Source: a virus. From it: a stretch of 26,045 bases of DNA. The stretch lies in IMG/VR virus record IMGVR_UViG_3300031774_000130, positions 1-26,045 of that record; one strand, given 5' to 3'. Below the pieces are notes generated by a model. It was not told the origin of the DNA and made no database searches. It saw only the letters and a list, made by a program, of their open reading frames with translations. Below are positions 3,101-22,783 of the stretch, piece by piece. The position numbers and the translations under genes are program-made. Each line of letters opens with the position of its first letter. Position 1 is the stretch's first letter.

Positions 3101-3197
3101 GACTAGTATTGAAATTTCTAACCGTTCTTTTTTACCAGCACAGTTTCTTAGTGCAGAATATGAAGCAATGTACCATTCAAGATCTAGAAGAATTTAA
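165..3197 (+). CDS. Tail tubular protein B / tail nozzle (T7 gp12-like) with two inserted beta repeats
   Basis: The 1010-residue product has the N-terminal signature of the T7 gp12 family: SIPTLLRGVSQ, then a conserved stretch with DHAWMQSNF, SSPTEGLKKRSG. In T7, gp12 forms the nozzle at the tail tip through which DNA leaves. T7 gp12 is 794 residues, so about 200 are extra. Much of the excess sits in two related inserts, residues about 133-194 and 426-500, each with a VTVTS..HGL.TGD core followed by a TITVT.ANTFT strand. The pattern resembles repeats that phage annotations call FCCH-like. Middle segments such as IFFFRNRLGVLSDDDVILSRVG and ITMGEELILFSEKAQFTL look like the conserved nozzle core. 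The ATG lies two bases after the upstream stop, and the TAA overlaps the next ATG (TAATG). Confidence 0.93.
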   Translation: MGLITQSIPTLLRGVSQASDTQQQSDHAWMQSNFVSSPTEGLKKRSGAQYVATLQSSTMGNVHIQTINRNENESYIAVFGNKSIKVFDAKDGTEKNIVFDNTSADNFNYLIRDALPSQEELLSGSNFIAGTYSQSGTTVTVTSNSHGLKTGDAAGIDITSGTGVDGDFTITVTSANTFTYTAATSLTTNGIVYFWTSNPKEEFKTISVADHAFVLNTNKTVAMTADVSTGANNGALVFFNQVSDNTNYTITVNNTIAVHPTSSDNPLSTTTIATGIKDKLLGQNGKSPDTGSALTGFTISQNGPVLWIKKDDSTDFGIDANDTQGDSQITLVKNSTQNFTDLPVVAPNNFVVEVKGSDSTKFDNHYVKFVTNNGGTFEKGQWEETVKPGISYKFDYATMPYVLVRKRDGDFIFSQADGGQYSILDKTVTYSLANHVVTVTSTAHGLSTGDQIEYKVLSGNIVNVSAIKTITVTNANTFTFPETSGNFSVNQSLSYGLANTETLPKWGERTVGDLDTAPNPSFVGQKINNIFFFRNRLGVLSDDDVILSRVGDYFNFFPETVTTVLDSDPIDIAASHTKISILKHAITMGEELILFSEKAQFTLKASDDTLTPKTAYIVVSTEFDSNTKANPVSSGNSIYFLTQKGEFSGIREYIKQPGVEIKDASDITIHIPAYIPSSVFKMTTSSSENLLALLPQDSNDIYINRWLYGEDFNKVLNSWFALNFYTDYNILNIDFIGSDLFLVVESATETVLLKLPFKSKHVEPYAPGGEDNSCEFHLDFKVTEATTGVSITYDSNTKLSTFTFPYKLYGTPKIVGRFLDRIFLGGTDETSTYVDSKGNTKTLDVGETIETSTIAFNDKGTTSVVTATGDYRNSKVIMGYEFSSMYVFSTQKLIDQKTNAPILGGRFQLLNFYLKYERTAFFETSVSSPNGGYSRYKFTPNLLGVRHSTGSTGSATQPLSKLRTQKGVFKFPVMAKADMTSIEISNRSFLPAQFLSAEYEAMYHSRSRRI

Positions 3198-3649
3198 TGG
3201 CATATCTAAGAAAATCTAATTTATCTGACCTTACTTACGTCTGTAACCATTTAAGAATTTTAGATAAAATAGAAGCTTGGTATCAAACAGGTCAACAACC
3301 AGAAGAAGCACTAAGGCTTACTTATTTATTTACAGAAAAGAATTTAGCTATTGCTGGTGATGAAGATCAAGCAATAGGTTTATGTGGTGTATGCAGCGAT
3401 GGAACTATATGGATGGTTGGTACAGATGAACTAACAAGTAAAAGAAGTTATAGGGTTGACCTAATTAAAAAAGGAAGGGAATGGGTAGACAGTCTATTGA
3501 AAACTTATAACGTCTTATATAATTATGTATATGCGGAGAATACTTCTGCTATCAAATGGTTAAAGGCTTTAGGGTTTACGTTTATTAAGTTACACCCTGA
3601 ATACGGCCACCTAAAAAAACCGTTCTATGAGTTTGTGAGGATCGTCTAA
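3197..3649 (+). CDS. T7 gp13-like virion assembly protein with GNAT-like fold
   Basis: The 150-residue product resembles T7 gp13 (138 residues), which is needed for assembly of the internal virion proteins. The C-terminal half gives the best match: an LLKTYNVLYNYVYAENTSAIKWLK segment aligns by eye with T7 gp13 MLEKYDTLWNYVWVGNTSHIRFLK, followed by a GF/GA turn and a closing acidic-basic strand. The spacing (helix, strand, N-T-S, helix, G-F) is that of the acetyl-CoA-binding end of GNAT acetyltransferases. Many such phage proteins are therefore labelled acetyltransferases, although no reaction is established. The start overlaps the gp12 stop by one base and the gene ends directly before gene 14, so translation is probably coupled. 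Confidence 0.8.
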   Translation: MAYLRKSNLSDLTYVCNHLRILDKIEAWYQTGQQPEEALRLTYLFTEKNLAIAGDEDQAIGLCGVCSDGTIWMVGTDELTSKRSYRVDLIKKGREWVDSLLKTYNVLYNYVYAENTSAIKWLKALGFTFIKLHPEYGHLKKPFYEFVRIV

Positions 3650-4306
3650 ATGTGTTTTCTTACAGCCCTTACCGCTCTTGGTGCTGGTGCTGGTGCTACT
3701 ACTGCTACTGCTGCTACTACTGCTGGTGGAGGAGGTTTATTTGGAACAAGTTTTTTAAGTGGTTTAGGTTTAGGTACAGAAGTTACTAATGCTCTTGTTG
3801 CAGATCTGGTTTTTACTGGAACAAAAAATGTTGTAGATACAAGAAGGTTAAATGCACAAGCTAAGTTTGAAGCAACACAAGCAGCAAAAGAAGCAGAAGC
3901 TGCTGACTCTGCTTTAGCTATAGAGCAAGAAGGACTTGCAGCTAGACTTAAAGAAGAAAGAAAAGCAAACGCACAAGAACAATTAGCATTAGCTAAGAGA
4001 GGAGCACAAGCAGCAGGAGCAATAAGAGCTAGTGAAAGAGCAGGATTAACAATTGATATGTTGCTAGGTGATGTAGAAAGACAAACAGGTGAAGCTACCA
4101 ATTTATTAGATCAAACATTAGCTTCAACAGTTCAACAATATAGAAGGAATACTTTAGGCTTAGACGCTAAACGAAAAAACAGACGTAACATAGCTGAAAG
4201 TAAACGTAACCAAGCACTAGGAAAGACAAGAGGAAATTTAGATATTGCTCTAGGTACACTTAGCAGTGGCCTTTCTAGTTACACCAGCCTTTTAGGTCAA
4301 GCTTAA
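3650..4306 (+). CDS. Internal virion protein B (T7 gp14-like)
   Basis: The 218-residue product begins with a small-residue, hydrophobic stretch rich in Ala, Gly and Thr (residues 1-45), which could insert into a membrane. A long Ala/Glu/Lys/Gln-rich helical region follows (about 60-140, coiled-coil character), and the C-terminus is basic with Gly and Ser. T7 gp14 is 196 residues; it is ejected first and forms a pore in the outer membrane as part of the gp14-gp15-gp16 ejectosome. Length, composition and position between the gp13-like and gp15-like genes all fit. Sequence identity to T7 is not evident by eye, so the call relies on architecture and synteny. The ATG follows the previous stop directly and the TAA shares a base with the next ATG. 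Confidence 0.82.
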   Translation: MCFLTALTALGAGAGATTATAATTAGGGGLFGTSFLSGLGLGTEVTNALVADLVFTGTKNVVDTRRLNAQAKFEATQAAKEAEAADSALAIEQEGLAARLKEERKANAQEQLALAKRGAQAAGAIRASERAGLTIDMLLGDVERQTGEATNLLDQTLASTVQQYRRNTLGLDAKRKNRRNIAESKRNQALGKTRGNLDIALGTLSSGLSSYTSLLGQA

Positions 4307-6558
4307 TGACTAACAGTTTTCGCCCACAAGCAGCACCAGTAGATACATTTGTACAACCTGTTAGTGTTGCACCTCCTAGTGACTTAGATGTTTTAGCAAG
4401 AGCTTTAAAAGCTGTTAATCCTGGTATTGAAGCTTTCCTTGATAACAAGATGGATGAAGCAATTGAAGCAGAAAAAGCAGAAGGGATGGAATTAGCTATA
4501 GAAGATTCTTTCAGTGATTTTAAAAATGTTGTTAGATCTGTTGGGAAAAAAGATGGTGAAGCTGCTGCTACACAATTAATAGGTGGAAGTATTTTTGCTC
4601 AAAAAGCTTATGAAAAACAAAAAGTTGAGATATTAGGTAATAACGTTCTTAATAAATTTAGTAATAGTTATGAAACAACATTAATTAATGATAGACCTTT
4701 AAGCTCATATACTTTTGAATCTCCAGAATTTCAAGGTTGGTTAGAAGAACAACGAAATGAATTTGTCAATCAATTAGGTGATATTAATCCTACCTATGTT
4801 AATAAATATTTTTTACCAAAATTAGCAGCAGCTACAGGACAAATCACAAGTTATCAAATTAAACAACATAAATTATATAATGTTGAACAAATTAAAAAAT
4901 TAACTGTTCCTACAGTTGAATCACTTGTTTTAAATATTGATGATGGGGCAAAGATAACAGAAATAATTAAACAGTTTGAAATTGACATGAATAATGCAGG
5001 AATATTTGGACAGCAGAGAACAGATCAACAAAATTTAATTATTGAAACAATAGCTGATTTTGCTGAAGAAGCAGGAATGAATGGTGACTTGTCAGATGCT
5101 GTAAAAATATTAGATTTAGCAAAGCTATTTCCTTCTGGACCCGATGGTAAATTATCTCTTGAAGATAATCCAACTTTTCTAGATGAAAAAAATAAAGTTA
5201 TAAAAGTCATTAAAAATAATGACTATAACGATGTGATAAGGAAAGAAAAATTAGAAGACATAGAAAAAACAAATGAATTAGAAAAAACACTAAAAGATAT
5301 TAATGAAATAAATAAACAGATAAACAACACTGAAGACGAAGCTGAGAAAAAAGTTTTACAAAAAAAATCACAAACACTTCTAGAAAATTACAAAGCAAAA
5401 TATCCAGAAATGACTCCAAGACTTAATACAATATTGTCTAATATAGATCAAAATATGGCATTAGATTATGGAGAAATTTTAATAAAAATTAGAGGTGGTG
5501 GTTATGATTCCAAGCAACAAGCATTAGATGCTGCTTATGCATTCTATGCTCAAGATCCAAAAAGGAATCAACCACAGTTTGATACATTAATGAGGGCTAT
5601 AAACGATGTTGAAACTGGTAGATATACATATGCAGGGCAATTACTTGGAACACTTAAAACTCAGCTTAAGAATGAACTATCTAATATCAAAGGAGCTATA
5701 TGGGCTGATTCTGGTGATTTAAGAGGCTTTACCGCTAGTGAACTTAACAGATTAGACATTGAGGCTAATGATCTTTTCTTTAATTGGCTAGATTCTTTTA
5801 TTAAAGAGAAAGGAAGAGAGCCTTCTCAAATGGAACAAAGAAATTGGTTTAACGACAACGTTAGAGATGTGTATTTAGAAGAAGCAAAGAAATTCAAGCC
5901 ACCAAAACCATCAGGAGCAAGCAACGTAAATTCATCACAAAATAACAATGATCAAGATTTTGATCCAAATAAAAACAATCAAGATTTAGAAGGTGATTTA
6001 AGTTCCAATCCAGTAGTTAACACACTTAATCAAGTTGCTAATGCTCTTACAGGTACGAGACCAGCAGCAGCTGGAACAATAGAAGAAGCACAAGAACAAG
6101 GACAATTAAAACCAGTAAGTAAACAACAATCATTACGTGATGGTGCTAATGAATTAGGAGTCAAGCCAGAAGATTTAGCAGCTATTATTTCTTATGAAAC
6201 TATTGGTAGTTTTGATCCGCAAATAGTAGGAACAGATAAAAATACAGGTGATACGTATCAAGGGTTAATTCAATTTGGTCCTTGGGAAAGAGAAAACTAC
6301 AACATTACTACTGAGATGTCTTTTCAAGATCAAGTTAAAGCTGTTGTTCAATTTCTAAAAGATCGTGGAGTTAAACCTGGTCATGGTCCAAAAGAAATAT
6401 ACGCTGCTGTATTTACTGGTCATGTAGGAAATATTGAAAATGGTGGATTAGATTGGGTAGATGCTAATGGTACTACCGTTAACAAAGCCCTAAAAGATCT
6501 ACTACCTGGTGGTGGTCATTACGAAAAAGCTGTTCAGTTCCTTCAACAAAAAAGTTAA
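4306..6558 (+). CDS. Internal virion protein C (T7 gp15-like) with C-terminal lysozyme-like domain
   Basis: The 750-residue product matches T7 gp15 in length (747) and position. Residues 1-600 are mainly helical, with a strongly charged Lys/Glu/Asn/Gln-rich coiled-coil region near 300-365 and a low-complexity Asn/Gln/Asp linker near 540-570. Residues about 610-750 form a separate domain resembling soluble lytic transglycosylases: LAAIISYET with candidate catalytic Glu631, then TYQGLIQFGPWE (Gln652-Glu661), where SLT enzymes have their G-L-x-Q motif, and a closing helix. In T7 the transglycosylase domain is the N-terminus of gp16, so here it occupies the same genomic spot but is joined to the other protein. 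It would cut peptidoglycan locally during DNA entry. Activity is inferred. Confidence 0.85.
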   Translation: MTNSFRPQAAPVDTFVQPVSVAPPSDLDVLARALKAVNPGIEAFLDNKMDEAIEAEKAEGMELAIEDSFSDFKNVVRSVGKKDGEAAATQLIGGSIFAQKAYEKQKVEILGNNVLNKFSNSYETTLINDRPLSSYTFESPEFQGWLEEQRNEFVNQLGDINPTYVNKYFLPKLAAATGQITSYQIKQHKLYNVEQIKKLTVPTVESLVLNIDDGAKITEIIKQFEIDMNNAGIFGQQRTDQQNLIIETIADFAEEAGMNGDLSDAVKILDLAKLFPSGPDGKLSLEDNPTFLDEKNKVIKVIKNNDYNDVIRKEKLEDIEKTNELEKTLKDINEINKQINNTEDEAEKKVLQKKSQTLLENYKAKYPEMTPRLNTILSNIDQNMALDYGEILIKIRGGGYDSKQQALDAAYAFYAQDPKRNQPQFDTLMRAINDVETGRYTYAGQLLGTLKTQLKNELSNIKGAIWADSGDLRGFTASELNRLDIEANDLFFNWLDSFIKEKGREPSQMEQRNWFNDNVRDVYLEEAKKFKPPKPSGASNVNSSQNNNDQDFDPNKNNQDLEGDLSSNPVVNTLNQVANALTGTRPAAAGTIEEAQEQGQLKPVSKQQSLRDGANELGVKPEDLAAIISYETIGSFDPQIVGTDKNTGDTYQGLIQFGPWERENYNITTEMSFQDQVKAVVQFLKDRGVKPGHGPKEIYAAVFTGHVGNIENGGLDWVDANGTTVNKALKDLLPGGGHYEKAVQFLQQKS

Positions 6559-12071: not shown

Positions 12072-14657
12072 ATGGCTACTAACACTGCTGCATCTTTTAC
12101 TAGTCACACTGGCAATGGTGGTGCTGGTCCCTTCTCTATCTCTTTCAGTTACCTTTCTGAAGATGAGATAGATGTAACTGTTGATGGTGTCTTAAAAACT
12201 AAAACTACCCACTACACCTTTCCATCAGCTACTACCATTTCCTTTACTTCAGGGAATCATCCAGCAAACAGTGCTGCAATTAAGTTCCAAAGAGATACAA
12301 ATATAAGTGCTAAAAAAGTAGATTTCGTAGATGGAGCAATCTTAACTGAATCTGATCTTGATACAAATACTGAGCATTTATTATTTGGTCTACAAGAAGT
12401 TCTTAATCATGTAGATACAAAAGTTTTTACTTCTAGTCAAATAGCTGCTTCTGCAATTACAGCAACTGAAGTGGCTGATGCTTCTATTACTACAGCAAAA
12501 TTACATGGAGATACTGTTGTAATTAATAGTGAACAAGCAGGTGCTACAGCAAATGACACTTCTTTCTTTACAACATTAGCTTCTGATAGTCGTTATTTTA
12601 GACAAGATAGTTCTGAAACTATTCTTAGTGGAGCTTCTTGGAGTTCAGGTAATACTCATATAGCAACTACAGCAGCTATTGATGCTCGTATTGTTGATTT
12701 AGTTGATGATGTAGGTGGTTTTGTTCCAATAGCAAATGAAACATCTTTTCCTGATGCAAACCCTGATGTTAACAATGGTGCTGGTACTTTAATTAGTATA
12801 AAAGCTCTTGCTTCTAACCTTACTTCAAATGGTAGTGGAGTAGCAACAATATCCAATGGTAATGCATCTAATAATGCAACTATTACTATTAATGGTTTAG
12901 CAAATAGTACAACTTATGCAGCTGGTTTTGGAATGATTGTAGAGACAACATCTACACTTCATACTTATACATTTCATAGACAAACACCAAAAGCAACAGA
13001 AGTAACAACAGTTGCTGGAATATCAGGAAATATAACTACAGTTGCAGGTGCAGTAACGAATATTAATACAGTTGCAACAAACATAGCAGCAGTTAATTCT
13101 TTTGCTAATACATACAGTATTGCTAGTACAAATCCCACATCAGGACTGAATACTGGTGATCTTTACTTTAATACTTCAAGCAATGAATTAAGAGTATATA
13201 ATGGTAGTTCTTGGCAAGCAGGTGTAACAGCTACAGGTGATTTAGCCAGCTCGTCAGGAGCTACATTTACAGGCGATGTAACTCTTAATGCTCAAAAAGA
13301 TTTACGTTTTGCTGATGCTGATAGCTCGCATTATGTAGCTCTTCAATCACCTGGCACGATTGCTAGTAGCTTTACTCTTACTCTTCCTGCTACTGATGCT
13401 GCTGTAGATGGATATGTCTTAGCAAGTAATGGATCAGGTGTTTTGTCTTGGGTCGATCCAGGTTCTAGTTCAAGTCCTACTTTTACAGGAGATGCAACGC
13501 TTACAAATGATGGAGCTTTAGTTGGGTTTTCAAGTTTAAATGCAACTTATACAGGCAATGTCAAAACGTTTACAGTTACTGTTGCAACTAAGACTGCTGC
13601 TCATAGATATAACGGGACTGGATCAAGTTCTGGATACAAAATTGATGGTAAAGAATCTCCTTTTTTAACTCTTACTCCAGGTCGTACATATAAATTTGAC
13701 CAAGCAGATAATACTAACTCAGGTCATCCACTTGTTTTTTACCTAGATGCAAATAAAACTACTGGTTACACAACAGGCGTTACTCTTAGTGGTACTCCTG
13801 GTTCAGCTGGAGCTTATACACAAATAGTTGTTTCAGATACGACTCCACAAATATTGCATTATCAATGCTCATCTCATGCGTCGATGGGTAATAGCGTTCA
13901 AACAAATAGCAATATTATTAATATATTAGATGAAGATAATTTTGCTTCTAACAGTGACACCTCACCCCCTAGTCAGCAATCAGTTAAAGCTTATGTAGAT
14001 ACTGCTGATGCTTTAAAAGCTAATCTTGCTAGTCCAGCTTTAACAGGTACAGCAACAGGAGTTAATCTCACACTGTCAGGAAATTTGATTGTAAATGGGA
14101 CCACGACTACTGTAGCGAGCACAAATACGACTATATCGGACAATTTATTAGAATTAAATAGTGGAGCGACTAGTAATGCTAATGATTCTGGAATAATTAT
14201 TGAACGTGGTTCTACTGGCGATAATGCAATATTTGCATGGGATGAAAGCGCAGATAAGTTTATAGTTGGAACAACAACAGGAACAGCAGATGCAACAGGT
14301 GATATAACCATTGCAGCAGCTACTCTAGTTACTTCAACAATAGAAGATTCAAAAGGTGATGTAAGATCTATTCCTCAAAATACTCAAGGTTCTGCTTATG
14401 AGTTATTAGCTTCTGATGCTGGAAAACATATCCTTGCTAGTGGAAATATAACATGGGTAGATAGCCGACATGTTGCTGGTGATGCAATAACAATTGTCAA
14501 TAATACGGCTGGAAATATAACAATTATAAAAGGAACAACGATGTATAACACAGCAGATGGCAATAATGCGAACCGTATTTTAGCAACAAGAGGAATGGCT
14601 ACTATCTTATGGGCTTCAGGAACAGTTGCCTATATCTCAGGATCAGGTCTTAGCTGA
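12072..14657 (+). CDS. Tail fibre protein with T7 gp17-type N-terminus and cupredoxin-like insert
   Basis: The 861-residue product opens with the T7 tail fibre N-terminal domain (about residues 1-150): GPFSISFSYLSEDEIDVTVDG, THYTFPSATTISF, IKFQRDT and LLFGLQEVLN. This domain attaches the fibre to the tail. The rest is Thr/Ser/Asn-rich beta repeats typical of trimeric fibres. Residues about 496-615 form a distinct domain with a His552 in SGHPLVFYL and a Cys599-x2-His602-x2-Met605 loop in HYQCSSHASMG, the ligand order of type 1 copper proteins such as amicyanin. The C-terminus (DVRSIPQN, ELLASDAGKHIL, AGDAITIVNN) resembles the end domain of many marine phage fibres. T7 gp17 is 553 residues. ATG follows the gp16 stop by two bases. 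Confidence 0.88.
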   Translation: MATNTAASFTSHTGNGGAGPFSISFSYLSEDEIDVTVDGVLKTKTTHYTFPSATTISFTSGNHPANSAAIKFQRDTNISAKKVDFVDGAILTESDLDTNTEHLLFGLQEVLNHVDTKVFTSSQIAASAITATEVADASITTAKLHGDTVVINSEQAGATANDTSFFTTLASDSRYFRQDSSETILSGASWSSGNTHIATTAAIDARIVDLVDDVGGFVPIANETSFPDANPDVNNGAGTLISIKALASNLTSNGSGVATISNGNASNNATITINGLANSTTYAAGFGMIVETTSTLHTYTFHRQTPKATEVTTVAGISGNITTVAGAVTNINTVATNIAAVNSFANTYSIASTNPTSGLNTGDLYFNTSSNELRVYNGSSWQAGVTATGDLASSSGATFTGDVTLNAQKDLRFADADSSHYVALQSPGTIASSFTLTLPATDAAVDGYVLASNGSGVLSWVDPGSSSSPTFTGDATLTNDGALVGFSSLNATYTGNVKTFTVTVATKTAAHRYNGTGSSSGYKIDGKESPFLTLTPGRTYKFDQADNTNSGHPLVFYLDANKTTGYTTGVTLSGTPGSAGAYTQIVVSDTTPQILHYQCSSHASMGNSVQTNSNIINILDEDNFASNSDTSPPSQQSVKAYVDTADALKANLASPALTGTATGVNLTLSGNLIVNGTTTTVASTNTTISDNLLELNSGATSNANDSGIIIERGSTGDNAIFAWDESADKFIVGTTTGTADATGDITIAAATLVTSTIEDSKGDVRSIPQNTQGSAYELLASDAGKHILASGNITWVDSRHVAGDAITIVNNTAGNITIIKGTTMYNTADGNNANRILATRGMATILWASGTVAYISGSGLS

Positions 14658-14658
14658 T

Positions 14659-15882
14659 ATGACACCAATTCAACAAATGTTTTTAGGCGGGGGTTCTATT
14701 CCAACCGCAGAAGCTCCCACCAATTTAAGCCTATCTTTAGCCACAGCAACAACGCTTACAGCAACGTACTCCAATACAACAACATTAGGAGCACCTCTTA
14801 CTTTTGGAGTTAATTATTCAACAACAAATAACGCTACAACAATAAAAAATTCAGGAACTAGTGTTACAGGTAATTCAACAACTACAACTACAGGAACTTT
14901 AACGGCAAGCACTACCTACTACTTTTTAGCATGGGCTAATAGTGGTACAGAAAAAATATACTCATCTAGTATTGTTTCTATTTCAACTATTGCTGCTGGC
15001 ACGTTTCTTGCTGCTGGAAGTACAACAAATGCGTCGGGTACATCTTGGGTTGAATATCTTGCTCCTACAGATAAGTTAATTTCTTTCTATGCCGTAGGTG
15101 GGTCTGGTGGGTCTGGTGGAGCTTGGAATCAAACAAACTCTAATGGTGGAGATAGTGGAGATGCTGCGGCTAGTTACACTTTCGCGTCAGGAACACACGG
15201 TTCAAATATTTATTTACGTGCATGTGTAGGAGGAGCAGGGACATATCTTGATGATGGATCAGCGGCTTATGCCTGTCCCTCTCGTGGTGGTGGGGCAAGT
15301 GCTTGGCAATATAAAGACACTTCAAACAATTGGCAGGATGTAATAGTCGGAGGTGCTGGAGGTGGTGGCTCTTCAGCTTGGAATAATGTTCCTACTGATG
15401 CAGGTGACGGAGGTCATGTTAATTCAGGTACCACAAGTGACACTAATAATTTGGTCTACGCTGCAGGAGGAGATGGAGGGAACGGCAGCGAAGGAGGCGG
15501 TGATAATAATGCTGGTGTAAATGCTAGTCATAGCAATAGAAATGCTTATGAAGGTGGTGGTGGATACGGTGGTAGTTCTACCGGAAGCTCAAGCTATAAA
15601 ACTCAAACTACTGGAGGTGCCGGCAACTCCGCTAGAGGAACAGGAGGCAATATAGAACCTGAATATTACGGAAATGGCGGAGGTGGTGGCGGAGGCTACT
15701 TCGGAGGAGCTGGTGGTGCTTACCCAAACGGTGGCTCTGGTGGTTCAAGCATGAAGATGGCAGGCGCAGCACCTATAGCTCAAGTATTAACTGTTCCAAC
15801 TGGTCATACTAATACTGGGAGTCATGGTACACATGGAAGCAGTGGAACAGTGGGAGCAGCAAGAGTTGTAGTAGCGTCTTAA
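14659..15882 (+). CDS. Glycine-rich tail fibre tip / adhesin-like protein
   Basis: The preferred ATG at 14659 lies two bases after the fibre stop and gives 407 residues; an in-frame TTG at 14626 would overlap the fibre gene. Residues about 10-112 look like a fibronectin III-type beta domain (APTNLSLSLATATTLTATYS). From residue about 147 the protein is dominated by glycine runs (VGGSGGSGGAW, GGAGGGGSSAW, YGNGGGGGGGYFGGAGGAY) mixed with Ser, Asn and aromatic residues. In the adhesin gp38 of Salmonella phage S16 such runs fold into packed polyglycine II helices at the fibre tip. Position straight after the fibre gene suggests a receptor-binding tip or fibre-associated protein. Structure and role are inferred from composition and place. 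Confidence 0.72.
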   Translation: MTPIQQMFLGGGSIPTAEAPTNLSLSLATATTLTATYSNTTTLGAPLTFGVNYSTTNNATTIKNSGTSVTGNSTTTTTGTLTASTTYYFLAWANSGTEKIYSSSIVSISTIAAGTFLAAGSTTNASGTSWVEYLAPTDKLISFYAVGGSGGSGGAWNQTNSNGGDSGDAAASYTFASGTHGSNIYLRACVGGAGTYLDDGSAAYACPSRGGGASAWQYKDTSNNWQDVIVGGAGGGGSSAWNNVPTDAGDGGHVNSGTTSDTNNLVYAAGGDGGNGSEGGGDNNAGVNASHSNRNAYEGGGGYGGSSTGSSSYKTQTTGGAGNSARGTGGNIEPEYYGNGGGGGGGYFGGAGGAYPNGGSGGSSMKMAGAAPIAQVLTVPTGHTNTGSHGTHGSSGTVGAARVVVAS

Positions 15883-16008
15883 GAGCAATCACTATTAGTT
15901 GCACATTAATAGGTACTTTATTTACTACTTCTACGATTAGCCTAGTACTAGCCAAACATGACTAACTAAGACTTCCTAAGTATTATAAATACAGCCCAAG
16001 AATTTTTT
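15883..16008 (+). other. Intergenic gap between fibre and envelope modules
   Basis: This 126-bp gap breaks the otherwise gapless late operon. It holds a 10-bp perfect palindrome CTAGTACTAG (15942-15951) and an AT-rich stretch TATTATAAATACAG (15981-15994) before the next ATG, which could serve as a promoter for the following three genes. No close match to a T7-type phage promoter was seen. An open frame encoding a hydrophobic peptide (ITISCTLIGTLFTTSTISLVLA, 15888 onward) is present but has no ATG, GTG or TTG start. Confidence 0.4.
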
Positions 16009-16206
16009 ATGGTTAAAATCCTAACCTATGTCAATACTGCTGTTCTTTTAATAGCAGTTGGTGGAGGAGGTTTTGTTTACATGAAAAGAGCTGAATTTGT
16101 AAATGACATGATCTTTACAGTTCAAGATCAATTGATTAAAAACATTCAAAGTCAAATACAAATTCCTTCTATTCCTAATACAACAGGACCAGTTTTTAAC
16201 AGATGA
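16009..16206 (+). CDS. Small single-pass membrane protein of the cyanophage envelope module
   Basis: The 65-residue product has one hydrophobic segment at residues about 5-24 (LTYVNTAVLLIAVGGGGFVY), a positive KR pair just after it, an amphipathic middle (FVNDMIFTVQDQLIKNIQSQ) and a Pro-rich tail. No catalytic motif is visible. From memory, similar short proteins stand at the head of a gene set in marine cyanophages that also includes the next two genes; they are usually labelled hypothetical. The gene overlaps the next by four bases (ATGA), so the two are translationally coupled. CCCAAGAA 14 bases before the ATG resembles the leader box seen before early genes, and no strong Shine-Dalgarno is present. 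Confidence 0.75.
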   Translation: MVKILTYVNTAVLLIAVGGGGFVYMKRAEFVNDMIFTVQDQLIKNIQSQIQIPSIPNTTGPVFNR

Positions 16207-16757
16207 TCCAATTTAAATCATTTAATGGCCTAACTTCTCTTGTGTTAGGTGGAGGTTTAATAGCAAGCAATTTTATGGCTTTAAGTATGCTATCTCAGAA
16301 AAATGGCATCCCTAATATTGCTAACCTTCCAAGTACTCCTTATTCATCTTTTTCTATTCGCAGCAACAAAGCTGCTGATGGATCAGAAGAATGGACAATG
16401 GCACAACGTCAGCATGACCCAAAGACAATGCTCTCATACGAGGATTCAGAGCAACCTACATTCAATAAGGGCGTTAAAAAGAAATACATTCATAAGGAAA
16501 GCGTTGCTCAATTTATTACATATCCGCAAGGTATAGATGGAAAATTAACAGCAAAGCAAATTGAATGTATAGAGAAACAAGCTCAAGGTAGAAGTAATGG
16601 AATGATGATTGCAGATGCTGGATCAGTCCAAGTAACACCAGCTATTGCAGGGATTCCTATTGTAGGACCAGTATTAGCAGGAATATTCTTTGGTCAAGCT
16701 AGGAAGCAAGTAGGAAATGCAGCTAGTGATCTTGCTGGTCAATGGAATGATTGCTAA
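16203..16757 (+). CDS. Membrane-associated protein of the envelope module, unknown function
   Basis: The 184-residue product has an N-terminal hydrophobic segment (residues about 10-31, LTSLVLGGGLIASNFMALSML), which could be a signal anchor. It then has a polar region with Lys- and Gln-rich stretches, a short TAKQIECIEKQAQG motif, and a second Gly/Pro-rich hydrophobic segment (about 147-169, TPAIAGIPIVGPVLAGIFFG) near the C-terminus. It ends in a Cys. The arrangement suggests a two-pass or hairpin membrane protein. It does not match a family I can name with a function, but similar proteins seem common next to the neighbouring genes in marine cyanophages. It overlaps the preceding gene by four bases and is followed with no gap by the next gene. 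Confidence 0.75.
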   Translation: MIQFKSFNGLTSLVLGGGLIASNFMALSMLSQKNGIPNIANLPSTPYSSFSIRSNKAADGSEEWTMAQRQHDPKTMLSYEDSEQPTFNKGVKKKYIHKESVAQFITYPQGIDGKLTAKQIECIEKQAQGRSNGMMIADAGSVQVTPAIAGIPIVGPVLAGIFFGQARKQVGNAASDLAGQWNDC

Positions 16758-17576
16758 ATGGAAATAGAAGATATTTCTGTTAGAGAGATACCTGAAGCTT
16801 CGATAGATACAACAATAATTCCTACACCTAAAGCTGTATTACCTAACAACATAGGCTTTCCAGTTATTCAAATGCCTGGTTGTGTAAGGGCTAGAACGTT
16901 AAAAAATAAGAATTTAGTAACCTCAGATCCCAAAGGAAATTTCTATGTCTGTGATGGAAACGTACCAACACTTGAAAGCATGGCTGTTGATTGGGACGGG
17001 CTATCTGCTGTTGGACCTGTAAAAGCAGATGAGCCGGAAATAGTTCCACCTATTCCAAAGCTAAAAGGGAACCAGAGAAAGAAAGTGAAAGAAAAGAATA
17101 GCTCCAATAACGAGAAGGGAGATACCGATATAGGGCAACAAGATTTTAAAGTTCCAGGTATTGATGGAGAGTTTATTGCAGATATACTTCCATGCCCACC
17201 TTTAGACACACTTGCTAAAACTCCTGTTGGTTCGTTAGGTAAAGGAGGACTTGCAAGGATTAAAGGTTGGAAAAGAGATGTGCTTACAGGTAAATGTGAA
17301 ACAGTATGGGAAGGCTTGAACCCACTAGAGATTGCAGGTAATTACGCTCCACAACCCACAGTTTTAGTAAATACATCTGCTATTGCTATCACATCAGTTG
17401 TTGGTGTAACTGTTATTGGTCAACCCATAGCTAAGTTTTTTCAGAAGCAGCTAAAAGGACAAGTAAAATCATTTTCTAAGAAGATTACTAAGAAGTTATT
17501 AGCTATTCGGGGGAAGAAGCCTCCTGTAAAGTCCCTTTCTGAAAGGAAAAAGGAACAGAGGTTGTCTCGGAAATAG
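16758..17576 (+). CDS. Envelope-module protein with Pro/Lys-rich linker and C-terminal membrane segment
   Basis: The 272-residue product contains a short domain with two cysteines and a conserved-looking core (MPGCVRARTLKNKNLVTSDPKGNFYVCDG, residues about 37-65), a charged Pro/Lys/Glu linker (about 95-125), a second cysteine-bearing region (ILPCPPLDTL; GWKRDVLTGKCETVWEGL), a hydrophobic segment (about 200-225, LVNTSAIAITSVVGVTVIGQPIAKFF) and a very basic tail. The layout suggests a membrane-anchored protein with its Lys/Arg-rich tail inside the cell. From memory it belongs to the set of marine cyanophage proteins of unknown function. Its start abuts the previous stop. Its last 74 bases overlap the end of the convergent gene on the other strand, and the reading frame there codes for the basic tail. 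Confidence 0.75.
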   Translation: MEIEDISVREIPEASIDTTIIPTPKAVLPNNIGFPVIQMPGCVRARTLKNKNLVTSDPKGNFYVCDGNVPTLESMAVDWDGLSAVGPVKADEPEIVPPIPKLKGNQRKKVKEKNSSNNEKGDTDIGQQDFKVPGIDGEFIADILPCPPLDTLAKTPVGSLGKGGLARIKGWKRDVLTGKCETVWEGLNPLEIAGNYAPQPTVLVNTSAIAITSVVGVTVIGQPIAKFFQKQLKGQVKSFSKKITKKLLAIRGKKPPVKSLSERKKEQRLSRK

Positions 17577-18345
17577 AATGTTTATGATCTGGCAATGTAT
17601 TAGGAGGATTTACAAGTCGTACATCTTCACAGACAACATAACTAGGACTATTTTTTGCATAAACAACGCCGAGCCGCATCTGCTCAGCACATACTTTTAA
17701 ACGCCCAAGAGCGTAATCTAATTTTTTGGCTTTGTAGGCTTGTTCTAAATATCTAACACGTGTATTCATAGCCGCCACGCACCTGCTAGTCATGCGGCGA
17801 TCTAGTGGTACTGCCACGGTTGCAGTTATACCGTAATTGAAGCTTAAGTTATTTTTGGCTTGTCCAGTTCTAATTGGTTTGGTGTATAAAACTCCACCAG
17901 GGTTTAATAAATTACCATCTGCATCTGTACTATCGTCATATACATTTTCAAGGTACGTTGGTTCAAACGGATCTTTCCAAGTATTGACTTTTGAAATGAA
18001 AGGATTAATGGTTAAAGTTGTGCCACTGCAACGGATTCCATCACCTACTTCTTGAAACATAAAGCTTCCCGACTGCACCTGGATACCTTGATTGATTACG
18101 GAACCTTGGGATGTTGCAGATGGAGAGGCTATAGTCGTAGCGTTTGCAAATACTGGTTGACTAAATGTTATTGAGTAAAGACAGATACCGATTCCACAAT
18201 AGATTCTGTTGTTGTGGTTCGGTTGATTGTAGTTACGTTTGAAAGGCCAGGATTTGATAGGGTTTCTGTGAATGAGAAAGCGTTGCCAGCAGTTTTTATT
18301 CCCCAGTCGGGTTTGTTTGCTGGTGTTACATCTACTGATGTCCAT
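17503..18345 (-). CDS. Secreted-type cyanophage module protein; true start unresolved
   Basis: The frame is open from an ATG at 18345, but its first 46 residues overlap the conserved end of the upstream gene in another frame and look unlike a protein. A signal-peptide-like segment starts at about 18207 (RIYCGIGICLYSITF then SQPVFA, cleavage before NATT), yet no ATG, GTG or TTG lies near it in this frame. The mature part (about 213 residues) has ANATTIASPSATSQGSVINQ, a Cys in GIRCSGTTL, a FEPTY acidic region and a DRRMTSRCVAAMNTRVRYLEQ helix. Similar proteins are, from memory, common in marine cyanophages, with no known role. Options are an unusual start codon, a -1 shift from the upstream gene, a long leader, or a base error. 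The 3' end overlaps the convergent gene by 74 bases. Confidence 0.7.
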   Translation of the reverse strand: MDISRCNTSKQTRLGNKNCWQRFLIHRNPIKSWPFKRNYNQPNHNNRIYCGIGICLYSITFSQPVFANATTIASPSATSQGSVINQGIQVQSGSFMFQEVGDGIRCSGTTLTINPFISKVNTWKDPFEPTYLENVYDDSTDADGNLLNPGGVLYTKPIRTGQAKNNLSFNYGITATVAVPLDRRMTSRCVAAMNTRVRYLEQAYKAKKLDYALGRLKVCAEQMRLGVVYAKNSPSYVVCEDVRLVNPPNTLPDHKHSISETTSVPFSFQKGTLQEASSPE

Positions 18346-18614
18346 GTAAAGGTGATGTTGTCAACGGTTTGAGGTGCATTTAATACAGCTTTAGGTGAAA
18401 TAGCGTTTGTATTTAGTGGTTCGATGTTATGACCAGAGACAACGTATTCATACCCTGATCGGTAATCTACTGATGTAATAGTTTCGGCTACTACAGTTTT
18501 AGTTTCCTGTCTGCTGTTTAAAGTACCAGTTGAGAATGTGGGGACGACGGGAACAGCAGAAACGCTAGTCCCTGTAAAGGATATAAGCAGTAATAACTTA
18601 CATATTTTACTCAT
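18168..18614 (-). CDS. Secreted envelope-module protein with signal peptide
   Basis: The 148-residue product has a clear signal peptide: MSKICK, hydrophobic LLLLISFTG, and a cleavage site after TSVSA. The mature part is Thr/Ser/Val-rich and likely all beta. Near residue 112 it has TAGNAFSFTET, almost the same as TAGSAFSFSES in the neighbouring 165-residue protein, so the two share a motif and may be diverged copies. It is polar and has no Cys in the mature part. The gene starts six bases after the stop of its upstream neighbour (reading leftward), so it belongs to the - strand operon. Its last 178 bases are also open in the frame of the next gene. Function is unknown; periplasmic or outer-membrane placement is inferred from the signal peptide. 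Confidence 0.78.
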   Translation of the reverse strand: MSKICKLLLLISFTGTSVSAVPVVPTFSTGTLNSRQETKTVVAETITSVDYRSGYEYVVSGHNIEPLNTNAISPKAVLNAPQTVDNITFTWTSVDVTPANKPDWGIKTAGNAFSFTETLSNPGLSNVTTINRTTTTESIVESVSVFTQ

Positions 18615-18620
18615 TAAGTA

Positions 18621-19118
18621 TCATTTAACGGTAATTTCTGATGAATACTGAGCGGTCCCAGTTGTACCCGCCCCTCCAGCAACGGTTGTTGCAATTCCAG
18701 CAGAAGTAACCGTACCAGCAAGGTTTCCAGCAACTCCGCCTGAAGTAACTACGGTATTTCCGAAGGCTGGCATGTCAGCAACAACTCCAGCAGAAACATC
18801 CACTCCTGAACCTATCGCTGGAATAGCGTCACCTTGAAGCCAGCTCTCAGAAAACGAAAATGCAGATCCAGCCGTATTAACTTCATAAACACCAACATCA
18901 AGTGTTGCTGCTGCCGAAGCCGAACCTGCTGTTAATTTTCCAAAGTGTTCTCCAGTCGTAACTTTCATGTTTGAGCCTGACACCGCATAGGTGCTTGGGA
19001 CTCGTATCGCCTGCACTGCTGCTCCATCAACTTTCAAGCTTGTTGAAGCTGTGTGTTTGATTGCTATGTCAGCTTGAGCTGGAGCCGCCAATAAAAGCAG
19101 GAAGAGGAAGTGTTTCAT
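18621..19118 (-). CDS. Secreted Ala/Gly/Thr-rich envelope-module protein
   Basis: The 165-residue product begins with a textbook signal peptide (MKHFLFLLLLAAPAQA, cut before DIAIKH). The mature protein is rich in Ala, Gly, Thr, Ser and Val with alternating beta pattern, contains VNTAGSAFSFSESW, and ends in a repetitive Gly/Ala/Thr stretch and SSEITVK. No cysteine is present. From memory, proteins with the same start, the same SAFSFSES motif and the same end are very widespread in marine cyanophages. Base composition is richer in G+C than the neighbours, which follows from Ala and Gly codons. The gene begins two bases after the stop of the 186-residue gene. The role is unknown; export to the periplasm or surface is inferred. 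Confidence 0.8.
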   Translation of the reverse strand: MKHFLFLLLLAAPAQADIAIKHTASTSLKVDGAAVQAIRVPSTYAVSGSNMKVTTGEHFGKLTAGSASAAATLDVGVYEVNTAGSAFSFSESWLQGDAIPAIGSGVDVSAGVVADMPAFGNTVVTSGGVAGNLAGTVTSAGIATTVAGGAGTTGTAQYSSEITVK

Positions 19119-19120
19119 GG

Positions 19121-19681
19121 TTAGTCAGGCAGCAAGTAAAGCGTTTCGCTGATTTTCTTTGCTGTTACATTAGCTATTTTATCTACTGGCCCCTGTTCGT
19201 AAGTAACAACTAAAACGCCCCAAGCATCTTCTTTACCTGTAATAGGACAAGCAACATTAATAAATGCCCTATCTAACTTGGTGCATTGAGCTAATACAAA
19301 ATGACCTATCACCTGTTCATCTCCTGGCATCCAATAACCAGTAGGCACTGGATCTATTGATGTTCTAGGGAAGTTGGCAATAGGAACAATATTTCTAGCG
19401 TCAGGCCAGTCATATAACCAGACAGAACTTATATCTCTGTTTTTTGCGAGGATTCCATTTAACAACGCTTCTACTTTTAGTTTCTTGCTTGGATCTTCTT
19501 CAAATAGAACGCTGATTTCTTTGTCGCCTCCATCATCAACAATCTTTGATTCATTATAAGCCTTGAAGCCAATTAGACCTATTGCTGAAATAGCAGATAG
19601 GCCAACGATCTTCATTAAAAACTTACTCCAGTTTTGCTCTGGAGAAATAATATTTTTAACGGTTTCTATTGCGGCCTTCAC
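19121..19681 (-). CDS. Membrane-anchored protein with soluble C-terminal domain
   Basis: The 186-residue product has one N-terminal membrane segment (residues about 22-40, FLMKIVGLSAISAIGLIGF) followed by a soluble domain of about 140 residues. The domain has a KVEALLNGILAKNRDISSVWLYDWPDARN stretch, a GYWMPGDEQVIGHFVLAQC region with a Cys, then ACPITGKEDAWGVLVVTYE and a closing helix. The alternating strands and the WGVLVV strand resemble a GAF/PAS-like alpha-beta sensor fold, but no ligand residues can be named, so this is a guess. Similar proteins appear next to the same neighbours in marine cyanophages as far as I recall. Its ATG overlaps the stop of the 153-residue gene by four bases, showing coupling. 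Confidence 0.75.
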   Translation of the reverse strand: MKAAIETVKNIISPEQNWSKFLMKIVGLSAISAIGLIGFKAYNESKIVDDGGDKEISVLFEEDPSKKLKVEALLNGILAKNRDISSVWLYDWPDARNIVPIANFPRTSIDPVPTGYWMPGDEQVIGHFVLAQCTKLDRAFINVACPITGKEDAWGVLVVTYEQGPVDKIANVTAKKISETLYLLPD

Positions 19682-20139
19682 GTTAGTTTTCCTGTTTGTG
19701 GATCGATTTCCTTGCCAGAGATAGGATCAATTTTAGCTTTCTCAGGAACAAGCTTTATAGGAGTTTCAACCCTAACGATTGTGTAAGGAACTCCATTAGC
19801 AAATCCTCCTGCTGCTTCTGCTTTTTTCTTTTCTTCGTCAGCTTTATACGTTCCATCACCTCTCTTTTTTGCTGTCTCAAGCCCGAATGAAGCGAGTGCT
19901 CCCGTAAATACACTCGCAATGAAAGTTGGATCTATACGTTCTTGCTCACCTAAACCTGGGATAGTTACATAATTAAGAGTCAGAATAAAACCACTCCAAA
20001 CGACAACTCCTAAACGCACAAATGTAGACAAGACTTGCAGTTGTTCTTCCTTATCATCCAATCCTTCTTTTAACCTTTGTATTGGGTTTTTTTTGTTTTC
20101 TTTTTTGGCTTGGGTTTCGCTTTTGGTTTCGTCATTCAT
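19678..20139 (-). CDS. Two-segment membrane protein, holin-like candidate
   Basis: The 153-residue product has a highly charged N-terminus (residues 1-35, Lys/Glu-rich, coiled-coil character). Two hydrophobic segments follow, about 39-62 (LSTFVRLGVVVWSGFILTLNYVTI) and 70-88 (DPTFIASVFTGALASFGLE), then a Lys/Glu-rich segment and a polar Pro-rich tail. Two closely spaced membrane segments with charged ends are compatible with a holin, but holins are diverse and no endolysin gene was recognised beside it, so this is a possibility rather than a call. From memory, a protein with a similar NYV.IPG...E..DPTFIAS core is common in marine cyanophages. It is the first gene of the gapless - strand run and has no clear Shine-Dalgarno. 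Confidence 0.75.
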   Translation of the reverse strand: MNDETKSETQAKKENKKNPIQRLKEGLDDKEEQLQVLSTFVRLGVVVWSGFILTLNYVTIPGLGEQERIDPTFIASVFTGALASFGLETAKKRGDGTYKADEEKKKAEAAGGFANGVPYTIVRVETPIKLVPEKAKIDPISGKEIDPQTGKLT

Positions 20140-20177
20140 AAAAAAAATACAAGCTTGCCAAACTAAGATAAGACAAA

Positions 20178-20360
20178 TTGCTTAATCCGTCAGTGCCTGA
20201 AGTTATTGCTGCAACTATTGGTGCTGTTATTAGTATCTTTCTTATGACCGTTGGAAGTATTAATAGACGCAGAGAAAAAGATATTATTGAAATATTTAGA
20301 CGCCTAAATCAATTAGAAAAATCTGTTGTCAGACTAGAAGAATCTAAAAAATATCATTGA
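20178..20360 (+). CDS. Small membrane protein with C-terminal coiled coil
   Basis: The 60-residue product starts at TTG (20178); a GTG at 20193 gives 55 residues and is equally possible, since neither has a strong Shine-Dalgarno. A hydrophobic segment spans residues about 8-27 (EVIAATIGAVISIFLMTVGS), followed by a charged helix with heptad character (RRREKDIIEIFRRLNQLEKSVVRLEES). One membrane pass plus a basic cytoplasmic helix is seen in small holin and antiholin proteins, but no specific family is recognised. The gene lies on the + strand between two - strand genes. Its start is 38 bases from the divergent 153-residue gene, and its stop overlaps the stop of the - strand 54-residue gene. Confidence 0.65.
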   Translation: MLNPSVPEVIAATIGAVISIFLMTVGSINRRREKDIIEIFRRLNQLEKSVVRLEESKKYH

Positions 20361-20518
20361 CTCATAATCCTTCTAATCAACTCTGTTTTTGAATAATGTC
20401 CTGTTGTTTCAGCTAAACTCATTAATTTTCTAGATGATAAATATCTTAAAAAATGTTTATATCCTTCCCTTGGTTTAGGACTTTTATAAACAAATAATGA
20501 TCCAATAGCTTTAAACAT
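20354..20518 (-). CDS. Small basic protein of unknown function
   Basis: This short frame encodes 54 residues beginning MFKAIGSLFVYKSPKPREGY and ending in HYSKTELIRRIMSQ. It is basic, with a helical KHFLRYLSSRKLMSLAETTG middle. An AGGA lies about 8 bases before the ATG on the - strand (ATAGGATTCTACTATG), supporting the start. The C-terminal part (SLAETTGHYSKTELIRRI) resembles a small helix-turn-helix or SAP-like module, but it is too short for a firm call. Its stop and that of the convergent + strand gene overlap in the sequence TCATTGA (20354-20360). It is the rightmost - strand gene, next to a hairpin terminator. Confidence 0.6.
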   Translation of the reverse strand: MFKAIGSLFVYKSPKPREGYKHFLRYLSSRKLMSLAETTGHYSKTELIRRIMSQ

Positions 20519-20851: not shown

Positions 20852-21073
20852 ATGGAAGATAATAAAAAAGCCTTAGAAAGCCTTCATACAGTACTTGTAC
20901 AAGAATTATTAGACAGAATTAGAGCAGGTGATGCTAAACCTTCTGACTTAAATGTTGCTAGACAGTTTTTAAAAGATAATGGTATTGAATGTTTACCAGT
21001 ACCAGAATCACCCTTTGGAGATTTGATGGCTTCTTTACCTGACCTAGAAGCTATTCATCCACTAGAAAGATAA
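20852..21073 (+). CDS. terS: Terminase small subunit (T7 gp18-like)
   Basis: The 73-residue product has LHTVLVQELLDRIRAGDAKPSDLNVARQFLKDNGIE, a pattern typical of T7 gp18-type small terminases (T7 gp18 is 89 residues). This subunit recognises concatemeric DNA and directs the large subunit during packaging. The C-terminus (SPFGDLMASLPDLEAIHPLER) is the acidic region expected to contact the large subunit. An AAGGA five bases upstream supports the ATG. The stop codon is followed with no gap by the TTG start of the large subunit. Confidence 0.9.
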   Translation: MEDNKKALESLHTVLVQELLDRIRAGDAKPSDLNVARQFLKDNGIECLPVPESPFGDLMASLPDLEAIHPLER

Positions 21074-22783
21074 TTGCAACCTTTACCAGAGAAATTACAA
21101 GACTTTAGATACTTTCTAATTCTTACTTGGAGGCATTTAAATCTTCCTGATCCAACACCAGTACAACTAGAAATAGCTGAATACCTTCAACACGGACCTA
21201 GAAGAAAAATAATTCAAGCCTTTAGAGGTGTAGGTAAATCTTGGATTACTTCTGCCTATGTAGTTTGGAAACTACGCATGGACCCACAACTAAAGTTCCT
21301 TGTGGTCTCTGCTTCAAAAGATAGAGCTGATAATTTCTCTACCTTTACTATGAGACTGATATCTGAAATGGATATCCTTGCTCCATTACGTCCAGATGGT
21401 AACCAGAGAAACAGTAAAATAAGTTTTGATGTAAGACCTGCTAGAGCTGACCATGCTCCTTCAGTTAAATCTGTGGGTGTACTAGGACAAATGGCAGGTT
21501 CTAGGGCTGATGAAGTTGTAGCTGATGACGTAGAAGTTCCTAATAACTCCTTCACTCAACCGATGAGAGACAAACTTAGTGAAGCAGTAAAAGAATTTGA
21601 CGCAATCCTTAAACCTAAAGGCAAAATTTGTTTCTTAGGTACACCGCAAACAGAACAAAGTCTTTATCTCACCTTAGAAGAAAGAGGATATGAAACATGC
21701 ATATGGCCTGCTAGATATCCAAACCTTAAAAACAATTACGGAGATAGACTTGCTCCTAAAGTTGCTCAAAGGCTCCTAGATGAGGTTGTAAAGCCTAAAG
21801 ATCCTGTTGATCCAGATAGATTCAACAGTGTTGACCTAATGGAAAGAGAAGCTTCCTATGGTCGCTCTGGCTTCTCCCTCCAGTTCATGCTGGATACCTC
21901 CCTTTCAGATCAAGATAGATATCCTCTTAAACTTTCTGACCTAATAATTTCTTCAATTAACCCTGAACACGCTCCAGAAAAAGTCATATGGTCTAATTCT
22001 CCTGAATACTCCCTACCAGATCTCCCATGTGTAGGTTTTAATGGAGACCGCTATTACAGACCTGCACAAGAATTTGGTGACTGGATTGAATACACAGGTT
22101 CAGTTATGTCAATTGACCCTTCTGGTAAAGGAAAAGATGCTACTGGTTATGCAATTGTCAAGATGCTTAACGGAAACCTATTCGTATCAGATGCAGGTGG
22201 CCTTGTTGGTGGTTATGACGACAGAGTTTTAGAAAGACTTTCCAAATTAGCTAGAGATCACAAAGTTAATACCATCATCTGTGAAGAAAACTTCGGAGGA
22301 GGCATGTTTGCTGAACTTCTAAAACCTTACTTAATGCGATTTCATCCCTGTCAAATAGAAAACGTACGTAATAACAAAACTAAAGAGTTCAGAATCATAG
22401 ATACCTTAGAACCTGTAATGAACTCTCACCGATTAATCATTGATAGGAAAGTCGTAGAAAAAGACTACAGATCCAATACAAATGAAGCACCAGAAAGAAA
22501 ACTAAAACTCCAGCTTTTTTATCAAATGTCCCGCATAACACGTCACAAAGGCTCCTTAGTCCATGACGATATCCTAGATGCTCTATCTGGTGCTGTCTCC
22601 TATTGGACTGATTTCATGTCTGCTGATGAAGATCGCAACATAAGATCTAGAAAAGATGAACTCCTTAGACTTCACCTAGATGAATGGGGTTCCTCCATAA
22701 ACAACACCATTACCCAAACAGCTATGGGTATGTCTATGGACCAAATTAAACAAACTGACCATTCCAATGCTTCTATGTTCTGA
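21074..22783 (+). CDS. terL: Terminase large subunit (T7 gp19-like)
   Basis: The 569-residue product is the packaging ATPase and nuclease; T7 gp19 is 586 residues. The ATPase half has the Walker A motif FRGVGKS (residues 50-56, Lys55) and a Walker B strand VVADDVE with Asp151 and Asp152. A coupling motif follows in FLGTPQTEQS. The nuclease half has Asp348 in MSIDPSGKGKDATG, Glu/Glu in IICEENFGGG and the metal-binding HDDILDA (Asp498, Asp499, Asp502), the RNase H-like arrangement of large terminases. All key residues appear present. The start is TTG directly after the small-subunit stop, the only start fitting the full N-terminus. A strong terminator follows 65 bases after the stop. Confidence 0.96.
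   Translation: MQPLPEKLQDFRYFLILTWRHLNLPDPTPVQLEIAEYLQHGPRRKIIQAFRGVGKSWITSAYVVWKLRMDPQLKFLVVSASKDRADNFSTFTMRLISEMDILAPLRPDGNQRNSKISFDVRPARADHAPSVKSVGVLGQMAGSRADEVVADDVEVPNNSFTQPMRDKLSEAVKEFDAILKPKGKICFLGTPQTEQSLYLTLEERGYETCIWPARYPNLKNNYGDRLAPKVAQRLLDEVVKPKDPVDPDRFNSVDLMEREASYGRSGFSLQFMLDTSLSDQDRYPLKLSDLIISSINPEHAPEKVIWSNSPEYSLPDLPCVGFNGDRYYRPAQEFGDWIEYTGSVMSIDPSGKGKDATGYAIVKMLNGNLFVSDAGGLVGGYDDRVLERLSKLARDHKVNTIICEENFGGGMFAELLKPYLMRFHPCQIENVRNNKTKEFRIIDTLEPVMNSHRLIIDRKVVEKDYRSNTNEAPERKLKLQLFYQMSRITRHKGSLVHDDILDALSGAVSYWTDFMSADEDRNIRSRKDELLRLHLDEWGSSINNTITQTAMGMSMDQIKQTDHSNASMF

Follow-up and report, generated by a model that had tools for sequence, protein, structure and literature searches.

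A block of genes lying between the fibre and terminase genes of a T7-like phage belongs to a real, tightly conserved module that is common to three unrelated cyanophage lineages. The block is carried by a virus record of 26,045 bases (IMG/VR record IMGVR_UViG_3300031774_000130, positions 1 to 26,045; the whole stretch is called the window here), in which tail, internal virion, fibre and terminase genes follow T7 order. Three genes on the + strand (A, B and C) meet five on the - strand (D to H) tail to tail, with two small open reading frames (I and J) at the edge. We consider it very probable that this is a late, exported envelope module, of whatever purpose. More tentatively, with a probability of roughly one in three, we propose that the cassette helps progeny to exit the picocyanobacterial cell.

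Conservation across phage lineages

Relatives of C, G and D and of T4-like D were taken from a viral contig collection and then profile-searched. The label 'T4-like' covers contigs retrieved by T4-like D queries and, in addition, a few loci that are named or clearly similar; marker genes were not used to type every one of them. The contig counts include many near relatives and thus are not counts of independent events. The order that recurs has A, B and C running into an opposed D, E, F, sometimes G, and H. E and F share the strand of D and face C in 45/45 T7-like and 78/89 T4-like contigs with enough flank around D. An earlier reading of the window from its letters (the sequence-only reading) had pointed to similar sets in unrelated marine cyanophages, and this holds: the families occur together, in one order, in T4-like and T7-like phages and in S-TIM5. 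The 3' ends of C and D overlap in 84/84 T7-like pairs (median 74 nucleotides) and 113/136 T4-like pairs; the tail-to-tail overlap of the window, on both strands, spans 17503..17576.

Named T4-like carriers are Syn9, S-RIM8, P-TIM68 and P-RSM6. In Syn9, A-B-C converge on D-E-F as in the window, and the same convergent block is found in S-TIM5, which represents a separate myovirus lineage. In the classical cyanopodoviruses P-SSP7, NATL1A-7 and P-SCSP-R27W, H, E and D share one strand with a shortened C, and P-SCSP1a has H, E and D opposite a C-like membrane protein on the other strand. Among ten records tested, D, E and H were jointly present in P-SSP7, Syn9 and S-TIM5 and jointly absent from Syn5, P60, S-PM2, PSS2, S-CRM01, Pf-WMP3 and Ma-LMM01. 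C co-varies with them where tested, with only a fragment of it in P-SSP7. D was also found in S-SCSM1 and not found in S-CREM2, a T4-like cyanophage whose virions reportedly contain a Cas9-annotated nuclease and a kinase-like protein (Table 3, PMC10665884).

More than 440 phage records match D, as do over 500 stretches in the viral contig collection, so that the gene set, though unexplained, is very common among ocean viruses. The D and F matches are confined to cyanophages. A scan of bacterial and archaeal genomes gave seven hits; since all seven have cassette neighbours and most come from metagenome-assembled genomes or single-cell data, they are probably phage sequence in such data or in contaminated assemblies, and a host origin of the cassette was rejected. 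Two assemblies that contain the cyanophage cassette are those of Nonlabens xiamenensis (188-kb contig) and Prochlorococcus AG-418-C09 (189-kb contig). Both contigs are of T4-like phage size and are probably phage genomes.

The suggestion that all eight genes form one module is not supported for G. This gene (19121..19681, - strand) encodes 186 residues with one membrane segment and a soluble domain. It lies between F and H in some T7-like contigs only, and is an optional, lineage-specific insertion that is also present in other contexts. In contigs L111 and L114, G shares a locus with a gp12-like gene.

Protein families and an earlier description

All ten open reading frames set out by the sequence-only reading, including the three + strand genes converging on five - strand genes and the two small edge genes, are found in the window at the positions given. 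Seven of them have a PHROG family, with a weak match for A, and two of these seven also match Pfam DUFs. Given these matches and the same order in many distinct contigs, we take the block genes to be real. A (16009..16206, + strand, 65 residues, Syn9 gp162 family) has one N-terminal membrane segment and a Pro-rich C-terminus. The window protein matches phrog_568, a family named 'plasmid stability', weakly (E = 0.0016), and all 31 scanned members of the A family match it (31/31, best E = 7.6e-40). B (16203..16757, + strand, 184 residues, Syn9 gp163 family; phrog_605, E = 1.1e-15) is a membrane protein with two hydrophobic segments and a terminal Cys. C (16758..17576, + strand, 272 residues, Syn9 gp164 family; phrog_570, E = 1.2e-31) has four invariant Cys, a membrane segment near its C-terminus and a basic tail. 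H (19678..20139, - strand; DUF6450, phrog_2714/721) has two membrane segments and charged hydrophilic ends. For G, neither the window protein nor four scanned relatives has a PHROG or Pfam family. PHROG and Pfam scans gave no informative function for any block member, and PADLOC models, a library of host defence and not of phage exclusion, gave no match to the ten proteins at E up to 0.1.

The sequence-only reading had seen here the best candidate for an undescribed system, which is not the case: the cassette has already been described. Sullivan et al. 2010 (PMC3037559) reported a cluster of five hypothetical families (T4-GC 218, 219, 234, 235 and 237), often accompanied by a plasmid stability protein, in 15/16 T4-like cyanophages; its genome position was variable, and they proposed a functional, perhaps mobile, cassette. 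S-PM2 is named there as a T4-like cyanophage without the cluster. Four of the five families are recognised in the block through the GenBank tags of S-SSM7, where F is 237, D is 235, C is 234 and H is 218. F was assigned by a direct match of the window protein, and D, C and H by position and order. T4-GC 219 was not seen in the S-SSM7 stretch examined. Clustering, a feature of the 2010 set, holds for the block. New with respect to 2010 are the full convergent block in T7-like phages, its occurrence in a third lineage (S-TIM5), the predicted nested start of D with its natural control, the apparent paralogy of E and F, and the late promoters.

Exported proteins and a predicted start of D inside E

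Membrane and signal segments were called by hydropathy and motif inspection rather than with SignalP. On this basis the signal peptides proposed earlier for E and F are borne out, as are a signal-like segment without a normal start in D and membrane segments in G and H. E (18168..18614, - strand, Syn9 gp166 family; phrog_650, E = 1.3e-37; DUF6322, E = 4.6e-29) and F (18621..19118, - strand, T4-GC 237, Syn9 gp167 family; phrog_564, E = 6.2e-43) are beta-rich and predicted to be exported, with ordinary signal peptides that end in AxA-like sites and recur family-wide. F is annotated 'OMP1' in some phages. D (17503..18345, - strand, T4-GC 235, 'gp165' family; phrog_848, E = 9.7e-68) has four invariant Cys and a beta-rich domain followed by a long helix. 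Its first 46 residues form a basic leader whose coding sequence lies within E; only then does a hydrophobic, export-signal-like segment follow, which contains an AxA site (...ICLYSITFSQPVFA-N; residues 47-67, 18145..18207 on the - strand, Ala67 nearly invariant).

This leader occupies a dual-coding overlap (18168..18345, - strand) in which D is read in the -1 frame of E. An in-frame start inside E is present in 198/198 nonredundant sequences with a long open overlap (194 ATG, 3 TTG and 1 GTG). The start codon arises from xxA|TGG of E. An ATG in the D frame is hardly possible elsewhere, so its location at a Trp codon is expected. More surprising is that an A closes the preceding codon in 194/198 sequences, even though this codon encodes seven different residues; elsewhere in E, codons ending in A make up 28-36% for Thr, Ser and Gly and 52-68% for Gln, Lys, Glu and Arg, and only 5/201 of the other Trp codons are preceded by A. 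Syn9 and S-TIM5 have ATG at the nested position, and P-SSP7 and P-RSP2 have GTG at the Trp. A set of 20 divergent sequences differs: in most of them the frame closes 4-70 nucleotides upstream, and D instead starts at the ATGA of the E stop or just past it, with an ordinary signal peptide. Within the overlap, four-fold sites of E are somewhat less diverse than outside it (0.27 against 0.36 in T7-like and 0.47 against 0.51 in T4-like sequences), so the D leader sequence is only weakly constrained. We conclude from these codon patterns that translation of D probably starts within E, which gives the protein a long basic leader and places its export segment late. It would be a clean case of an overlap gained or lost while the product is still exported.

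Two other ways of making D were considered. Programmed frameshifting from E is unnecessary given the conserved in-frame start codon, and no classical slippery heptamer was seen by eye near the end of E. Initiation at an ATA overlapping the E stop was dropped, as that codon varies among relatives. D is annotated too short in P-SSP7 (PSSP7_045, L006 13616-14236) and S-TIM5 (gp062, L385 9648-10600); the nested start was apparently missed, and the export segment is thereby lost.

E and F are paralogues, judging from their profiles: comparison gave a probability of 97% (E = 1.7e-11), part of the score being supplied by the signal peptides, and E proteins are also matched by the F profile. F of the window is 62% identical to that of the T4-like P-RSM6, and D is about 37% identical to T4-like D. 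Quick-tree distances from the window to the nearest T4-like row are 0.74 for F and 4.9 for D, in rough trees with few T7-like rows and flagged long branches, P-SSP7 above all, which are not suited to dating transfers. This uneven divergence suggests that F was exchanged between phage types more recently than D. Together with export signals on three products, it agrees with the earlier view of a transferable envelope module.

The structure model of D (60 sequences, mean predicted local distance difference test score, pLDDT, of 61) has a disordered leader, a beta domain at about residues 96-180 and a helix at 183-224. The model of F (mean pLDDT 67) is rich in beta structure, and its first and last strands are long. 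Fold searches with D and F gave no significant PDB match, and PDB sequence searches with D and E nothing significant. Of the significant D matches in a viral library, those with names belong to the D family or are other cyanophage proteins.

Late promoters in T4-like relatives

The T4-type late promoter motif NATAAATA (PMC2984593) lies within 100 bp of F in 40/118 T4-like relatives (7.1 expected) and within 100 bp of H in 40/106, where 3.8 would be expected; most copies sit about 29-35 nucleotides ahead of the start. With one mismatch allowed, it occurs 26-38 nucleotides before F in 41/118, versus 4 in a shifted control window, and before H in 49/106, versus 1. In the same relatives it is not enriched before B, C, D or E, being rare before C and absent before E. 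Since F leads, or nearly leads, the gene set of its strand and H that of its own, both halves look late. The window itself has the T4-type late promoter core TATAAATA at 15984-15991, 25 nucleotides before A; we make no claim for this site, as the motif is found within 100 bp in only 9/74 T7-like relatives. Sigma-70 and terminator scans of the window were at chance level, and no promoter could be assigned from them.

A possible role in progeny exit and its rivals

A late envelope complex would fit the export signals, the membrane partners, the late promoters and the paired invariant Cys of C and D. For a role in exit, A, B, C and H would sit in the inner membrane, and D, E and F would be exported via Sec to the periplasm or outer membrane. 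There, the beta-rich paralogues E and F may assemble with D, which combines a beta domain with a long helix and is disulfide-capable. The resulting complex would open or link the envelope layers and let progeny out late in infection, thus doing the job of holin/spanin sets with unrelated proteins. We infer the assembly into one complex, its location and the exit role. We place exit ahead of the alternatives on three grounds: timing, the fibre-terminase site of the block in T7-like phages, and an anatomy of H that resembles a holin. In T7 this interval holds holin gene 17.5, and 142/173 members of the H family have two membrane segments, the number found in class II holins, whose hydrophilic N and C termini would both lie inside.

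Several findings weigh against this proposal. In PHROG scans no block member convincingly matches a known lysis family: a single H protein of 27 matched a holin family (E = 0.026) and a single A protein of 31 likewise matched a holin family (E = 0.049). The D and F models are low-confidence monomers that cannot support a mechanism, and the T4-type late promoters give no direct timing for the T7-like window. Another holin candidate exists, since NATL1A-7, which carries the module, has a short protein between fibre and TerS that by eye resembles gp48 of Syn5, a phage without the module. S-PM2, S-CRM01 and S-CREM2 manage without D, which makes the function dispensable or replaceable.

That dispensability would also suit envelope remodelling, in which E and F, late in the outer membrane, mask or alter receptors, protecting progeny or excluding other phages; D and the membrane proteins would then serve in their assembly. 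T5 Llp does mask or alter a receptor elsewhere, three proteins here carry export signals, and D and F match in cyanophages only. The late promoters permit progeny protection and favour a late role, be it exit or protection of progeny, over early exclusion. Against remodelling, an exclusion protein of the classical sort tends to be one small lipoprotein or membrane protein that is produced early, whereas the cassette conserves six or seven proteins as a set; the pattern used found no lipobox in any window member, and the PADLOC host-defence library, which does not cover phage exclusion, gave no match. On balance we rank remodelling second, a little less likely than exit. That the products are minor structural or injected components of the particle is unlikely. 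The late promoters in T4-like relatives would allow it, and the block adjoins fibre and terminase genes in the window and virion genes in S-TIM5; the Syn5 horn and knob genes gp53, gp54 and gp58 occupy the same interval. Yet the Sec signals of E and F and the export-like segment of D would take these proteins out of the cytoplasm where virions assemble, and no homologue of the module was found in Syn5. The sequence-only reading had named detection of all products as ordinary virion tail parts as evidence against its view; the Syn9 and S-TIM5 records, which do label virion proteins, so label none of these. Likewise, the cryo-electron microscopy model of P-SCSP1u, whose relative P-SCSP1a carries homologues of D, E and H, names no such component.

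Another alternative, a complex in the envelope or thylakoid that has no part in exit, would late in infection change how the cell transports or secretes, or its photosynthetic membranes. It could account for the limitation to picocyanobacterial phages among the tested records and for the proximity to hsp20 in Syn9, S-RIM8, P-RSM6 and S-TIM5. However, no enzyme, transporter or photosystem family was matched, whereas psbA and hli, which serve physiology, are recognisable in the same phages, and we regard such a role as improbable. Least credible, and in our view very unlikely, is that the cassette is a selfish mobile element: transfer, not benefit, would maintain it, and the 'plasmid stability' protein A would move it, as was proposed in 2010. 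The variable genome position and the name of A (PMC3037559) point that way, as does the mosaic divergence of F versus D. But A is a small membrane-anchored protein without a nuclease or recombinase match, and conservation across three phage lineages with a conserved nested start implies a selected function.

How marine cyanophages open their hosts is poorly known, and the literature found names no holin for these phages. It is tempting, though we think it rather doubtful, to see here a new type of phage-only machine spanning the host envelope from inner to outer membrane, passed among three lineages to release or protect progeny, and with the leader of one subunit nested in the gene of another. 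The core of H, E and D (with C) that T4-like, T7-like and S-TIM5-like phages share provides the first genes to probe, and a gene-editing method for T7-like cyanophages exists (PMC8776855).

Neighbouring genes

On the fibre side, the block follows a gp17-like fibre gene (12072-14657) and a glycine-rich open reading frame of 407 residues (14659-15882), which has no PHROG match and by eye shows runs of GGG blocks like those of polyglycine adhesin tips (T4-type gp38). On the terminase side lie I (20178..20360, + strand, 60 residues), with a membrane segment and, by inspection, a coiled-coil-like tail, and then TerS (20852-21073) and TerL (21074-22783). I is present in T7-like relatives. J (20354..20518, - strand, 54 residues) varies in strand and position among relatives, and its membership of the block is doubtful. 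Farther upstream, residues ~573-712 of a gp15-like internal virion protein (4306-6558) match the baseplate-hub family PHROG 196, and this C-terminus resembles a lytic transglycosylase domain by eye; in T7 that domain sits in gp16, not gp15. Another internal virion protein family (phrog_308, 3197-3649) has weak acetyltransferase similarity. No tRNA was found in the window.

Comparison with known systems

The Sullivan 2010 set, as in Syn9 gp162-gp167, is alike in families F, D, C and H and in the convergent order of A-B-C versus D-E-F. The window differs in its T7-like phage type, the fibre-terminase site, the placement of H on the - strand behind F and the extra G; in addition, T4-type late transcription machinery is not expected in the window phage. 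In the P-SSP7 type, PSSP7_042-045 correspond to truncated C, H, E and D, with D called gp165 in NATL1A-7. Here H, E and D lie between fibre and terminase genes and the D start is nested in E, as in the window; in contrast, all genes are on the + strand, C is truncated, and A, B and F were not found in the region searched.

Syn5 gp53, gp54 and gp58 share with the block the interval between fibre and TerL. They differ in the absence of an N-terminal signal-like segment, and homologues of D, E, C and H were not found in Syn5. A Syn5-type horn or knob identity was considered and rejected, as no homology was found.

Holin/spanin cassettes (T7 17.5, 18.5 and 18.7; lambda S and Rz/Rz1) likewise combine small membrane proteins, exported proteins and overlapping genes, and the T7 lysis genes occupy the same genome interval in T7-like phages. 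By inspection, A and I, each with an N-terminal membrane segment and a helical-looking tail, may be compared with inner-membrane spanins, which are anchored periplasmic coiled coils. Unlike these cassettes, the window has no convincing lysis-family match and, under the pattern used, no lipoprotein signal such as the lipobox of the outer-membrane member of an Rz/Rz1 spanin pair, and its exported proteins are larger and more numerous. The overlap is also of another kind than in these cassettes: here the end of one exported protein overlaps the leader of another.

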